From Desulfosporosinus sp. (GTDB lineage Bacteria; Bacillota; Desulfitobacteriia; Desulfitobacteriales; Desulfitobacteriaceae), in contig JAIMKP010000009.1 of the NCBI GenBank assembly GCA_020692355.1, forward strand, positions 1 through 64,000: 64,000 bases of DNA. The letters are read 5' to 3'. Position numbers and translations under genes: made by a program. Below the pieces are notes generated by a model that searched no databases, was not told the DNA's origin, and was given only the letters and a program-made list of their open reading frames with translations. Of the stretch, positions 48,761 to 59,037 are shown in pieces (position 1 is the stretch's first letter; each line of letters begins with the position of its first letter).

Positions 48761-48839
48761 AAAATTGTTATTTTATGGGTTTGAGGGTGCTCCATAGGCC
48801 TACTGCGTTTGCAGGTAGTTTCCGGGAAGGGTGGTCAGC

Positions 48840-50657
48840 TTGCTTGTTGAGGATATGATCGATATTAAGCTATCGTCTCTGGCTGTCTTGTCCAGACGGA
48901 TGGAACTGAATGAAGTCCGCTCGATCGTTGAAGGAAACTCAAGCGTGCCTCTGTTTCCCCTCCTAGGAAAGCAAGGTGATGTGGAGTGCCTAGTGGATGG
49001 CGAGAGGGCGAGGCGTATCCTTCAAGCCACCTTGGTTAGTGATGCGGGGAACGAGGATCGAGCCAATCTACCCGACACGGATCCGACAGAAAGTTTTAAA
49101 ATATGGCCGTTACCAGGCCTATGTCTTAAGTTAGGTCGGCAGAAAGAGCTTGCCTGGGCCAATGATAATGCCATGCGCCTTTTGGATCACTTCGCCAACA
49201 ATGACTTACCCTTTGTGTACGTCCTCGATGAGCACAACCGTTTGTTGGGCGGGGTGCGAAGGGACGTGGTTGCCGCAGGGGCCATTGAGCGTTCCTTAGA
49301 TTTTATTCCGGTGCCTGAGATTTTCGATGCCCTCCATGATGCCATTATCATTATCGATAAAACTGGGACAATAAGCTACCTCAATCATGCCTACTCCCGG
49401 CTTCTGGGGGTGTCGGCCCGGCGGATCGTGGGGCGGAAGATGGCGGAAGTCGAGCCGACCTCGGGATGTTTAAGGGTTCTCAACGGGGATGTTCCTTTGG
49501 TCAACGAACGGCTCCATATTCAGTCGCTCGATGTGGATGTGGTGGCCACGATTACACCGATTTATCGGGATGGGGGGTTAAAAGGGGTCATTTCCGTTTT
49601 CCGAGATTTGGAAGAGACCTTGCGCTTAAGCCGCGAACTGGAGCGGTTGACTTCAGTGACGCACTATCTGCTGAACCAACTCGATGAGAAGAATGCACCT
49701 TCCTCAGAGTTTAAGAACATTATCGGAGCCAATGGTGGCTTCAAAAAATCCCTTAGCCTGGCAGCGAGAGTCGCAGGTAGCGATGTTCCGGTCATGATCC
49801 GGGGCGAGAACGGCGTGGGTAAAGAAATCGTGGCCAATGCGATTCATAAGGCGAGCAAGCGGGGGGACAAGCCTTTAATTCGAGTAAACTGTGCAGCGAT
49901 TCCAGAAAACCTGTTAGAGAGCGAGTTATTCGGGTATGAGGAGGGGGCCTTTACCGGAGCCAAGCGGGGCGGCAAAATAGGCAAGTTCGAAATGGCCGAT
50001 GGAGGAACGCTCTTCCTCGATGAAATTGGCGATATGAACTTGGCGATGCAATCTAAAATCCTGCGCGCGGTACAAGAAAAAGAGATCGAAAGAGTGGGCG
50101 GCACTCGTCCTATTCCGGTAGATATCCGCATCCTGTCGGCGACCCATCGGGATTTGGAGACGCTGATTCAGAATGACGCATTTCGAGAGGATCTTTACTA
50201 TCGGCTCAATGTCGTAACCATCAGTATACCACCGCTCAGGGAGCGTCAAGAGGATGTCTTGCTGTTTGCCGAGTATTTCATAGGAGTGTACAGTGAAAAG
50301 CAGGGGAAGGGTCTGATCAGGCTCTCTGAAAAGGTGAAGCAGATTTTTCTGGCCTACCATTGGCCGGGAAATGTGCGCGAATTGCAAAATGTGGTTCAAC
50401 ATGCAGTGCTTCTCTGTGACAACAGCTTGATTACGGTGGATGAGCTGCCCCCGTATTTACGCCATGGCCAAGATTCCCAAACCGAACGGATGCAGGGTAG
50501 CCTGGATTTAAGGACGATTCTGGAACAGACGGAAAAGGAAACCATCCTGTTCGCACTTGAGAAGGCGCGCAACAACAAATCGCTGGCGATGCGCCTGCTC
50601 GGGATCAATCGGCGAAGTTTTTATGACAAACTTAAAAAACATGGCATATTCTCGTAA
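48840..50657 (+). CDS. sigma-54-dependent transcriptional activator (PAS-AAA-Fis)
   Basis: The 605-residue activator opens sigma-54 RNA polymerase promoters by ATP hydrolysis. The N-terminal ~140 residues resemble paired CBS-like sensory modules. A PAS domain covers about 155-270 (DAIIIIDKTGTISYLNHAYSRLLGV). The AAA+ domain has Walker A GENGVGKE, the sigma-54 contact loop GAFTGA and Walker B LFLDEIGD. The C-terminus is a Fis-type helix-turn-helix (NKSLAMRLLGINRRSFYDKLKKHG). TTG 48840 is well spaced from GGAAGGG; the GTG at 48831 overlaps that site. Two -24/-12 promoters downstream mark its likely targets. Confidence 0.9.
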   Translation: MLVEDMIDIKLSSLAVLSRRMELNEVRSIVEGNSSVPLFPLLGKQGDVECLVDGERARRILQATLVSDAGNEDRANLPDTDPTESFKIWPLPGLCLKLGRQKELAWANDNAMRLLDHFANNDLPFVYVLDEHNRLLGGVRRDVVAAGAIERSLDFIPVPEIFDALHDAIIIIDKTGTISYLNHAYSRLLGVSARRIVGRKMAEVEPTSGCLRVLNGDVPLVNERLHIQSLDVDVVATITPIYRDGGLKGVISVFRDLEETLRLSRELERLTSVTHYLLNQLDEKNAPSSEFKNIIGANGGFKKSLSLAARVAGSDVPVMIRGENGVGKEIVANAIHKASKRGDKPLIRVNCAAIPENLLESELFGYEEGAFTGAKRGGKIGKFEMADGGTLFLDEIGDMNLAMQSKILRAVQEKEIERVGGTRPIPVDIRILSATHRDLETLIQNDAFREDLYYRLNVVTISIPPLRERQEDVLLFAEYFIGVYSEKQGKGLIRLSEKVKQIFLAYHWPGNVRELQNVVQHAVLLCDNSLITVDELPPYLRHGQDSQTERMQGSLDLRTILEQTEKETILFALEKARNNKSLAMRLLGINRRSFYDKLKKHGIFS

Positions 50658-50703: not shown

Positions 50704-50743
50704 CTGTATGAGAAAACATACAGGCGTGCGCCAGACCATACAG
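50704..50743 (+). promoter_or_regulatory. probable enhancer (UAS) for the sigma-54 activator
   Basis: CTGTATG-N6-CATACAG (50704-50723) is a perfect palindrome and a further CATACAG half-site follows at 50737-50743. They lie about 190-220 bases upstream of the -24 element, typical for Fis-type activators. The same CATACA/TGTATG pair recurs at 52447. Confidence 0.65.
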
Positions 50744-50924: not shown

Positions 50925-50940
50925 TGGCACAAACTTTGCA
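50925..50940 (+). promoter_or_regulatory. sigma-54 (-24/-12) promoter for the MFS gene
   Basis: TGGCAC-AAACT-TTGCA matches the sigma-54 consensus exactly at all conserved bases. The expected start point is about 50951, 117 bases before the MFS start codon. Confidence 0.88.
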
Positions 50941-50980
50941 CACCCTCTTTGGCAAGACGTGAAAGGGGGTGTGGCTTTTT
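50939..50980 (+). terminator. terminator whose 5' arm overlaps the sigma-54 promoter
   Basis: CACACCCTCTTT (50939-50950) pairs with AAAGGGGGTGTG (50962-50973), followed by GCTTTTT. Transcripts from the upstream activator gene can form it. Transcripts starting at about 50951 lack the 5' arm. Confidence 0.75.
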
Positions 50981-51067: not shown

Positions 51068-52414
51068 ATGGCGGTCATAACGGATACCACGCGAAGAAAG
51101 GTTTTGTCCTACCGTTGGTTAGCTTATGGTATGTTGGCGTTGGTCTATTTCTTTGTTTATTTTGATCGGTTGGCTCCAGCTGTGGTCTCCCCTGAACTGG
51201 TTAAGACATTCCATATCAATGCGGCCTCGCTGGGGTTGTTGTCCGCTGCTTATTTTTACCCTTATGCAGTCATGCAGTTTCCGTCCGGGTTGTTGTCCGA
51301 TTACCTCGGCCCACGGCGGGCGGTCAGCATCTTTATCCTCATCGCGGGAGTGGGGACAGTTTTATTTGGAGCCGCCCAGTCTTATGACATTGCCTTGGTC
51401 GGCAGGGGCATCATGGGGATCGGGGTGGCAGTGGTTTATATTCCTGTGATGAAGATTTTGGCGGTATGGTTTAGAAAGCATGAGTTTGCGACGTTAACGG
51501 GTGCTTTGCTGACGGTTGGAAATATTGGTGCCTTGGCGGCTTCAGCTCCTTTGGCCTGGCTCGTTGCCCAGGCAGGCTGGAGGGAGTCGTTTTATTACCT
51601 GGGCGGAGTCACGGTCGTACTTGCCATTTTGACGTTTACCTTAGTGCGCAACAAACCGCAGGACCTGGGACTGCCGACCATCGATGCTATCGACGGGGTG
51701 CAAGCAGACAGTACAACCGCGAGTGCGACGGTTGAAGAGGAAATCCCACCCGGGAGAGCTATGAAAATGGCCGTGTCCAGTCGCAACTATTTTCCCTTAG
51801 CGATTTATGCGTTCTTTGTCTATGGGACCATGATGGGTTTTCAGGGTTTGTGGGGCGTTCCCTATATGATGGACACCTATGGGTTTAGCAAACAGGTGGC
51901 GAGCAATGTCCTGATGATGTGGGCTGTCGGCATGATTTTCGGTTGCCCCATCGCAGGGGTCTTATCGGATCGAATTTTCCATAACCGCCGGACTGTGGTG
52001 TTATTGGGTTCAGGAACTTACACGTTGCTTTGGCTTCTCTTGGTGCTCGCGCCAGGGGCGCTCAATGCGACCCTGCTCAGTATCCTCTTCTTCGCGATGG
52101 GCTTCACGGGAGGATTCTATGTTGTGACCTATGCCCAAATCACCGAACTCCTCCCAAAACAGGTTGCGGGTACGGCCGTTGGCGTGTATAATCCCTGGTT
52201 TTTCATCGGGGGAGCGCTCTTCCAGCAAATTATGGGGGTCATTCTCGATTCCTATGGCAAGGTCGGAAAGATCTTCCCTGTCAACGCCTATCGGGCGACC
52301 TTCATCCTCTGCTTTGTGGGGATGATCATCGGCACGCTCGGTGTGTTCTTCAGTCGGGACACTATGACGCAGCGGCTACCTGGAACGGAGAAAGGGTACA
52401 GCATGAAAGCATGA
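51068..52414 (+). CDS. MFS transporter of the sigma-54 regulon
   Basis: This 448-residue transporter has 12 predicted helices, the loop motif GLLSDYLGPRRAVS between helices 2 and 3, and a central cytoplasmic loop near residues 200-240. It belongs to the organic-anion-type MFS families (anion:cation symporter and oxalate/formate-like). Given its sigma-54 promoter and the following CoA ligase operon, it probably imports the carboxylic acid degraded by that operon. The substrate is not known. The start ATG follows GAGGGAATAAA. Confidence 0.85.
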   Translation: MAVITDTTRRKVLSYRWLAYGMLALVYFFVYFDRLAPAVVSPELVKTFHINAASLGLLSAAYFYPYAVMQFPSGLLSDYLGPRRAVSIFILIAGVGTVLFGAAQSYDIALVGRGIMGIGVAVVYIPVMKILAVWFRKHEFATLTGALLTVGNIGALAASAPLAWLVAQAGWRESFYYLGGVTVVLAILTFTLVRNKPQDLGLPTIDAIDGVQADSTTASATVEEEIPPGRAMKMAVSSRNYFPLAIYAFFVYGTMMGFQGLWGVPYMMDTYGFSKQVASNVLMMWAVGMIFGCPIAGVLSDRIFHNRRTVVLLGSGTYTLLWLLLVLAPGALNATLLSILFFAMGFTGGFYVVTYAQITELLPKQVAGTAVGVYNPWFFIGGALFQQIMGVILDSYGKVGKIFPVNAYRATFILCFVGMIIGTLGVFFSRDTMTQRLPGTEKGYSMKA

Positions 52415-52446: not shown

Positions 52447-52461
52447 CATACAGGGTGTATG
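52447..52461 (+). promoter_or_regulatory. second probable UAS of the sigma-54 activator
   Basis: CATACA-GGG-TGTATG is a perfect palindrome using the same six-base arms as the UAS at 50704, in the reverse arrangement. It lies about 75-90 bases upstream of the second -24 element. Confidence 0.55.
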
Positions 52462-52535
52462 GATAGCCAAACACTTAACCTCCTAAAGTGCGGGGGGAGT
52501 GAGGGAGGGGGCAAGCGTGCTGAATGACCCTCACT

Positions 52536-52551
52536 TGGCACGCTATTTGCT
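52536..52551 (+). promoter_or_regulatory. second sigma-54 (-24/-12) promoter, for the CoA ligase operon
   Basis: TGGCAC-GCTAT-TTGCT matches the consensus. The expected start is about 52562, 35 bases before the ligase start codon. AGCGTGC (52514-52520) pairs with GCACGCT (52538-52544) across the -24 element, so a small hairpin again overlaps the promoter. Confidence 0.85.
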
Positions 52552-52596: not shown

Positions 52597-53937
52597 ATGC
52601 CGAACCACAGATTGTGGAGGGGGAACGGCTATGCACCTTATTGGGATGAGGAGTTAGAGACGATGCCCCGGGAAAAGATTAAGGAGCTTCAACTCAAACT
52701 TTTACAAGAAACCGTGGAGCTTGCTTATCACAACTCGGATTATTATCGCACAACCTTCGCGGCAGCCGGTGTTTCCCCGGAGAACTTGCACAGCCTCGAT
52801 GACTTAAAGAAGTTTCCTTTTATTGACAAGAAGATTTTAAGAAAAAGGCAAGAAGTGGTTCCGCCCTATGGGGATCTGGTCTGTGTCCCCCATGATGATC
52901 TGGTCTACTTATCTGCTTCCAGCGGCTCAACGGGTGTGCCAACCGCCTCGCCATTTACCTGGCAAGACTTTGAAGACTGGCAGGATTATGAAGCCCGTTT
53001 GTTTTGGTCATCGGGCTTAAGACCAACGGATATCTATTGCCATTCGCTTCAGTTCACTTTGTTTGTCGGTGGACCGGATGTTGTGGGAGCTATGAAGGTG
53101 GGTGCGCTCAGTATTTGGGCGGGTGCCATCCCGTCGGAAAGGCTTTTGGACATCTTTCAGAAGTGGAAACCGACGGCGATTTGGACGACGCCTTCCTATG
53201 CCTGGTATTTGGGGGAGACCGCTCAAGGCCAGGGAGTCGATCCGATGCGGGATTTGGCAGTGCGGAGAATCTTTGTGGCCGGGGAGCCGGGAGGGTCTAT
53301 TCCCGAGACTAGACAGCGCATTGAGGCCCTATGGGGTGCAGAACTCTACGATTACTATGGACTTTCGGATATTTTCGGTGCCTGTGCAGGGATGTGTGAG
53401 GCCAAGAACGGTCTGCACTGGGCAGAAGACCATATCCTGGTCGAAGTCCTCAATCCGGATACCGGAGAGGAGGTCAAAGAGGGAGAACGCGGGGAACTCG
53501 TGATTACCTCGCTAAGGAAAAAGGCCCGGCCGCTTATTCGCTTCAGGACGGGGGATATCGTTTCCCATACGACAGAGCCCTGTAGCTGTGGGCGCACACA
53601 CTTAAGGCTTCACGGAATTCATGGCAGAGTGGACGATATGCTGATCATTCGAGGTGTCAATGTCTTCCCGAGCGATATCGAGAAGGTTGTGCGTCAGAAT
53701 GAAGATCTGACAGGGGAATACCGCTTGGTGGTCAACGAGGAGAAGCATCTCGCGGTACTGACGGTGGAAGTCGAGCAAGCCGAGGGATATAATGCGAGTG
53801 CGGACAGGCTAGAACACGAAGTTGTTTCAGATATTTTTAAGATCCTGGGAATAAAGCCGCGTGTGAAGATCTTGCCGCCTAATACCTTGGAGCGGGCTAC
53901 ACACAAGGCAAAACGGGTATTTGATGAAAGAAAATAG
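52597..53937 (+). CDS. acyl-CoA ligase of the phenylacetate-CoA ligase (PaaK) family
   Basis: The 446-residue adenylate-forming enzyme should activate a carboxylic acid to its CoA thioester with ATP. It carries the P-loop YLSASSGSTGVPTA, the adenine-site segment LYDYYGLSDIFG, the hinge region RFRTGDIVSHTTEPCSCGRTHLRLHGIHGRVDDMLIIRGVNVFPSDIE and the C-terminal lysine region THKAKRVFD. PaaK-family members take aryl acids but also others. It is the first enzyme of the sigma-54 operon. GAGGAGG precedes ATG 52597. Confidence 0.88.
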   Translation: MPNHRLWRGNGYAPYWDEELETMPREKIKELQLKLLQETVELAYHNSDYYRTTFAAAGVSPENLHSLDDLKKFPFIDKKILRKRQEVVPPYGDLVCVPHDDLVYLSASSGSTGVPTASPFTWQDFEDWQDYEARLFWSSGLRPTDIYCHSLQFTLFVGGPDVVGAMKVGALSIWAGAIPSERLLDIFQKWKPTAIWTTPSYAWYLGETAQGQGVDPMRDLAVRRIFVAGEPGGSIPETRQRIEALWGAELYDYYGLSDIFGACAGMCEAKNGLHWAEDHILVEVLNPDTGEEVKEGERGELVITSLRKKARPLIRFRTGDIVSHTTEPCSCGRTHLRLHGIHGRVDDMLIIRGVNVFPSDIEKVVRQNEDLTGEYRLVVNEEKHLAVLTVEVEQAEGYNASADRLEHEVVSDIFKILGIKPRVKILPPNTLERATHKAKRVFDERK

Positions 53938-58624: not shown

Positions 58625-58763
58625 TGAGTAGCATATGTCGTTACCGTAACCCCGTGGTAACCCTGCCGTAACCCTGCGATTGTCGTTACCCTGGGATTGA
58701 CAAGCCTTAGGCTTGTGTGTTAACCTCAGGATGAAAAACTTCATATTTGCGGAACGAGTATAC

Positions 58764-58915
58764 TTTCTCAAGGGAAAGTATTGAAAAGGGAAGTCAGCTA
58801 ATCTGACGCGGTCCCGCCACTGTGGTAGTGAGCGGTCTTACAGAGTGTCACTGGGTAACCGGGAAGACGTAAGGCGGCGATGAACTTAAGCCAGGAGACC
58901 TGCTCGCTTCGAATC
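58764..58915 (+). promoter_or_regulatory. cobalamin (AdoCbl) riboswitch
   Basis: The aptamer hallmarks are in order: AAGGGAAGTC, GCGGTCCCGCCACTGTGG, a GTCACTGGG segment, the GGGAAG-then-GGCGATGA region and the B12 box AAGCCAGGAGACCTGC. It lies ahead of the cobalt transporter genes and should repress them when B12 is plentiful. The preceding 58630-58700 has several GTAACCC repeats of no known function. Confidence 0.93.
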
Positions 58916-58997
58916 CAAACAGGAACCTACGGAGGATAGGGGAGGTGTCACTTATGTCGGATAGCCAATGTATGTCATCTGGCTAGCGGAGACAGCC

Positions 58998-59037
58998 ATA
59001 ACCCTTTACAGGTATTTTCTGTGGAGGGTTTATTTTT
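58998..59037 (+). terminator. intrinsic terminator controlled by the cobalamin riboswitch
   Basis: ATAACCCTTTACAG pairs with CTGTGGAGGGTTTAT, followed by TTTTT. Its place between aptamer and cbiM indicates transcriptional attenuation when cobalamin is bound. Confidence 0.8.

Follow-up and report, generated by a model that had tools for sequence, protein, structure and literature searches.

A putative terminator embedded in a sigma-54 promoter between an activator gene and its target in Desulfosporosinus sp.

Here, we describe a sigma-54 promoter of Desulfosporosinus sp. that shares bases with a terminator-like hairpin, located in a 64,000-nt stretch of DNA (hereafter, the window; all unprefixed coordinates refer to it). 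Promoter, hairpin and T-run stand in a precise register that is rare by chance and recurs at other loci (Table 1). It is likely, judging from this anatomy, that the element is a start-site-selective intrinsic terminator whose selected function is to insulate a tight sigma-54 promoter from read-through. In the proposed mechanism, the sigma-54 promoter of the target operon has taken up the intrinsic terminator for RNA from the activator gene. Read-through transcripts would hold both arms, fold the hairpin and be released at the U-run, and so would never get to the MFS/CoA-ligase operon; RNA from any other promoter upstream of the -12 box would be treated likewise. RNA begun at about G50951 by the activated sigma-54 polymerase would be without the 5′ arm, no hairpin would form and elongation would continue. 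Sigma-54 promoters are prized for their near-zero basal activity, and many of them lie directly downstream of a transcribed activator gene. A terminator that can be folded only by upstream-started RNA would solve the problem of read-through at the promoter itself.

Table 1. Features of the locus in the window and of two further loci in the same genome with the same geometry.
Feature	Position	Strand	Basis or context
Sigma-54-dependent activator gene	48831..50657	+	ORF; PAS PF00989, Sigma54_activat AAA+ PF00158 (E=5e-70), Fis-type HTH PF02954 (Pfam)
Candidate upstream activator sites, CTGTATG-N6-CATACAG plus a further CATACAG	50704..50743	.	sequence repeats
Sigma-54 promoter (-24/-12) TGGCAC-N5-TTGCA, TGGCACAAACTTTGCA	50925..50940	+	exact match to TGGCACN5TTGCW
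5′ arm of terminator hairpin, CACACCCTCTTT	50939..50950	+	inverted repeat, folding; identical in sister species
Predicted sigma-54 start, G, first loop base	50951	+	sequence and usual sigma-54 spacing
Hairpin loop, 11 nt with 2 extra pairs	50951..50961	+	folding
3′ arm of terminator hairpin, AAAGGGGGTGTG	50962..50973	+	inverted repeat, folding
T-run TTTTT after 2-nt GC spacer	50976..50980	+	sequence
Target gene, MFS transporter, first of induced cluster	51068..52414	+	ORF; PF07690
Candidate activator site before second promoter, CATACAGGGTGTATG	52447..52461	.	CATACAG copy
Hairpin over second sigma-54 promoter	52514..52544	+	fold, -14.9 kcal/mol alone
Second sigma-54 promoter, TGGCACGCTATTTGCT, before AMP-binding CoA ligase gene 52597-53937	52536..52551	+	pattern match; Pfam
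L012, whole promoter as 5′ arm: TGGCACGATGTTTGCT-TTCT-AGCAATACGTGCCA-TCTTTTTTT	C92:7282		between two molybdopterin oxidoreductase genes
L006, 5′ arm directly after -12 box, inside cobalamin riboswitch terminator	C56:18293		predicted start in loop

The activator gene lies upstream of the promoter at 50925-50940, on the same strand as the target, and an intergenic region of 410 nt separates it from the MFS gene, with approximately 270 nt preceding the promoter. Its Sigma54_activat domain is one of 25 strong PF00158 matches genome-wide, and a genome with 25 activators implies the presence of rpoN. Exact TGGCACN5TTGCW sites number 12 in the genome vs. 0 for a reversed control pattern, which makes the promoter match meaningful. 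All four exact copies of CATACAG in the window fall in the two sigma-54 leaders (three at the first and one at 52447), suggesting that a single activator probably serves both promoters.

A first-pass annotation of this DNA had predicted the sigma-54 promoter and a 12-bp hairpin, and both are present exactly where it placed them. The final two bases of the TTGCA -12 element (C50939 and A50940) are also the first two bases of the 5′ arm. Counting 12 nt from C50939 leads to G50951, where a pyrimidine run gives way to its first purine and the usual spacing predicts the start, so that the 5′ arm ends one base before it, again as annotated. The 5′ arm is therefore wholly upstream of the predicted start, and the 3′ arm and T-run are beyond it. 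The hairpin comprises 12 pairs, including one G-U, with a folding energy of -21.7 kcal/mol; an intrinsic terminator is expected to have a stable stem of at least six pairs, as seen here, followed by a U-run, which is present but modest. Its T-tail score of 3.08 is moderate, and the efficiency of termination may be moderate as well, since only five T's follow the 2-nt spacer. Even so, the hairpin ranks second by strength among terminator-like hairpins of the window. When the 410-nt intergenic region was shuffled with dinucleotide composition preserved, a hairpin of -18 kcal/mol or below with a T-tail arose anywhere in only 1 of 400 shuffles, and one spanning the start in none of 400. A simple terminator scanner missed the hairpin because its 11-nt loop exceeds the scanner's limit of 8 nt. 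Terminator scanning combined with hairpin scoring revealed no other strong terminator in the activator-to-MFS gap, leaving 50939-50980 as the sole candidate for ending the activator mRNA.

Folding predictions separate the two transcripts clearly. Read-through RNA, modelled from a point 40 nt ahead of the start to the T-run, folded at -23.1 kcal/mol with a mean pairing of 0.98 in the 3′ arm, vs. -3.9 kcal/mol and 0.31 for RNA from the predicted start at 50951. The same contrast was obtained at L012, L006 and a Clostridia locus described below (L276), where the sigma-54 RNA folded at 0.0 kcal/mol. The position of the terminator would be the furthest downstream that still spares sigma-54 transcripts, and stray starts within the activator-site region would consequently be blocked too.

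Across the genome, 11 activators have a same-strand sigma-54 promoter downstream, 110-406 nt after the stop codon. A terminator is present in six of these 11 gaps, indicating that insulating targets from their activator genes is a common theme in this genome. Five of the six terminators (two of them weak) lie wholly upstream of the promoter, including one whose T-run runs straight into the -24 box. The embedded terminator at 50939-50980 is the furthest downstream and is the extreme form of this theme. In a set of 140 sigma-54 sites drawn from this genome and its relatives, strong terminators were found upstream of and across the start, and none ended at +40 to +79. At three loci that follow activator genes in this genome, relaxed sigma-54 promoters carry long imperfect repeats that pair the -24 region with the leader and have no T-run. 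At three other loci, the -12 to +1 stretch of a sigma-54 promoter can pair with a downstream ribosome-binding site (e.g., GCATATATCCTA/TATAGGAGTGTGC), possibly a translational version of start-site discrimination in which the ribosome site would be hidden.

The geometry of the window's terminator recurs at two more loci of its own genome, L012 and L006. The riboswitch at L006 is a cobalamin riboswitch (RF00174, 115 bits) preceding cbiM (PF01891), and a sigma-54 start there would bypass B12 repression of cbiM. The perfect sigma-54 promoter at the riboswitch terminator (region 1281-1540 of L006; C56:18073-18332 in the genome) is also seen at the corresponding locus of the sister species; among 299 genomes, no overlap of riboswitch and sigma-54 promoter occurred outside the genus. 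The window contains a second cobalamin riboswitch at 58739-58921 (RF00174, 105 bits), accompanied by a strong terminator (59000-59030).

The sister species keeps the 50939-50980 terminator with a single change in the hairpin, T to C in the loop. Identity of the arms is weak evidence, given that most of the region is unchanged too. The geometry of L012 and L006 is also kept in that species, and orthologues of the MFS gene outside the genus are too distant to extend conservation of this locus. Nine homologous copies with the same geometry occur in six Desulfosporosinus genomes, where the promoter serves as 5′ arm and the long hairpin it forms runs out into a T-run. Among them, almost no variation is seen in the promoter, 3′ arm or T-run, and the loop and flanks diverge; the T-run, CATTTTT in most, is kept in eight of the nine copies. 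In the alignment, 95.9% of cells are paired vs. 40-62% in slid controls, and the arms show one compensatory change (C-G to U-A). The pairing did not exceed a shuffle control because there is little variation among the copies. Four copies directly follow an activator gene, and all eight with readable context have a same-strand gene upstream, the readable copies not directly after an activator being preceded by another same-strand operon gene. At eight Desulfosporosinus loci, this multi-copy promoter-plus-hairpin element has conserved upstream repeats and precedes operons for thiolase, a ChsH2-like OB-fold protein and acyl-CoA dehydrogenase, as well as activator genes.

A further case was found at L276, in an unrelated Clostridia MAG, where a 16-bp perfect stem followed by T7 separates a sigma-54 response-regulator gene from an ABC transporter gene; a pattern search of its family (350 genomes) returned L276 alone. 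L276 was also among the 20 contigs recovered by a GTDB-wide scan (84,980 genomes) limited to the type with the -24 box in the arm and a T-tail, as distinct from the 50939-50980 type, in which the arm runs from -12 to -1. Eight of the 20 contigs came from the Desulfosporosinus group or sister species, and the other 11 were mostly in open frames and were taken as chance. Since the Desulfosporosinus copies form one homologous family, only some three to five independent origins can be counted, and coincidence could account for part of these.

The annotation had proposed looking for such an arrangement in related genomes. It is present at these individual loci, and a general enrichment was not seen. 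Across the phylum (398 genomes), a search for TGGCACN5TTGCN{3,33}GTGCCA showed no enrichment; among the matches listed, 36 places were mostly coding-like by eye, with a clear T-tail at L012 only. One other candidate (TGGCACAACTTTTGCAAAGACAAGTTGTGCTTTTT, G015:C315) appears to be the terminator of a serA-like gene, its likeness to a promoter being accidental. Promoter-to-leader pairing was slightly higher than in permuted pairings (104 sites, p 0.02), and was not significant when the window's own genus was left out (p 0.07) or when the test was confined to activator-downstream sites in the window's genome (p 0.17). Together, the weak permutation excess and the lack of pattern enrichment indicate that the embedded terminator is rare and that most sigma-54 promoters lack it.

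The annotation also extended its model to a smaller stem at the second promoter. A hairpin does exist there (52514-52544), and we rejected it as a start-site-selective terminator: both arms are upstream of the predicted start at ~52562, no T-run follows, and the region is no more stably folded than its shuffled versions (z -0.36). Similar inverted repeats with the -24 box as 3′ arm (GTGCCAA...TTGGCAC), both arms being upstream of the start, were observed here and at three other loci. Apart from this extension, the annotated model, in which upstream RNA would end, sigma-54 RNA would escape and the target would be insulated, fits all of the evidence at the first promoter and is backed by the other loci.

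Several alternative explanations deserve consideration. It is conceivable, if unlikely, that the hairpin simply terminates the activator gene in the ordinary way and overlaps the promoter by happenstance, in which case the overlap would be functionless and a terminator placed anywhere in the gap would serve. Terminators are common in the activator-to-target gaps of this genome and mostly end before the promoter begins, embedding is the minority case, and the ~270 nt available before the promoter mean that overlap is not needed. Happenstance is harder to reconcile with three embedded cases in one genome, a conserved Desulfosporosinus family and a 16-bp stem beside an activator gene at L276, and with a predicted start that comes after the 5′ arm in every embedded case.

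We find it improbable that the hairpin is instead a poor terminator, present by chance or as a structure that stabilizes a 3′ end. The five T's behind a GC spacer and the moderate T-tail score would suit such a role, but the hairpin's rarity among shuffles (1 of 400) and its second place in 64 kb argue against it, as do the lack of another candidate to terminate the activator mRNA and the identical layout elsewhere with longer T-runs. Nor does it seem at all probable that the inverted repeat works on DNA or in the induced RNA, as a binding site that controls open-complex formation or as a leader sequence conserved for itself. The nearly invariant 3′ arm of the Desulfosporosinus copies, with which the sigma-54 RNA would begin, is what such a role would predict. 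However, that arm complements the promoter in register, the T-run is kept in eight of nine copies, and unrelated loci have geometry rather than sequence in common. Selective termination thus remains our preferred reading of the hairpin at 50939-50973. More tentatively, and with the odds somewhat against it, a 5′ arm embedded in a sigma-54 promoter could be a repeatedly evolved insulation device that sorts RNAs by their start, holds tightly regulated operons silent behind their own activator gene and, at L006, lets sigma-54 transcription bypass a B12 riboswitch.

Sigma-54 activator-target pairs of Clostridiales, whose regulons have been reconstructed (PMC6615313), likewise have a PAS-type activator gene beside the target operon, a -24/-12 promoter and repeated activator sites; terminators, stem-loops and hairpins are absent from the main text of that paper. 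Intergenic terminators, sigma-54 promoters beside activator genes and structures confined to the longer RNA are each known, and their combination in a sigma-54 promoter is new to the literature searched: a word-based search of the open literature, with most subscription literature outside its scope, returned no description of it. The design gives a sharp, testable prediction and would serve as a compact insulated promoter. Like the intrinsic (Rho-independent) terminators found between regulators and targets, the element has a GC-containing stem and a T-run that would stop upstream RNA; unlike them, it has a 5′ arm that belongs to the downstream promoter, making termination dependent on the start point of the RNA. 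At L006, a terminator stands upstream of cbiM as in an ordinary RF00174 riboswitch, but a sigma-54 promoter abuts its 5′ arm and the predicted start in the loop would bypass the switch. The transposase genes of IS10 and IS200 are protected from outside transcription by fold-back structures that mainly hide the ribosome site. There, too, one arm of the inhibitory structure is found only in upstream-started RNA, and RNA from the element's own promoter escapes, whereas at 50939-50980 the structure would be a terminator set in a sigma-54 promoter rather than a cover for the ribosome site.
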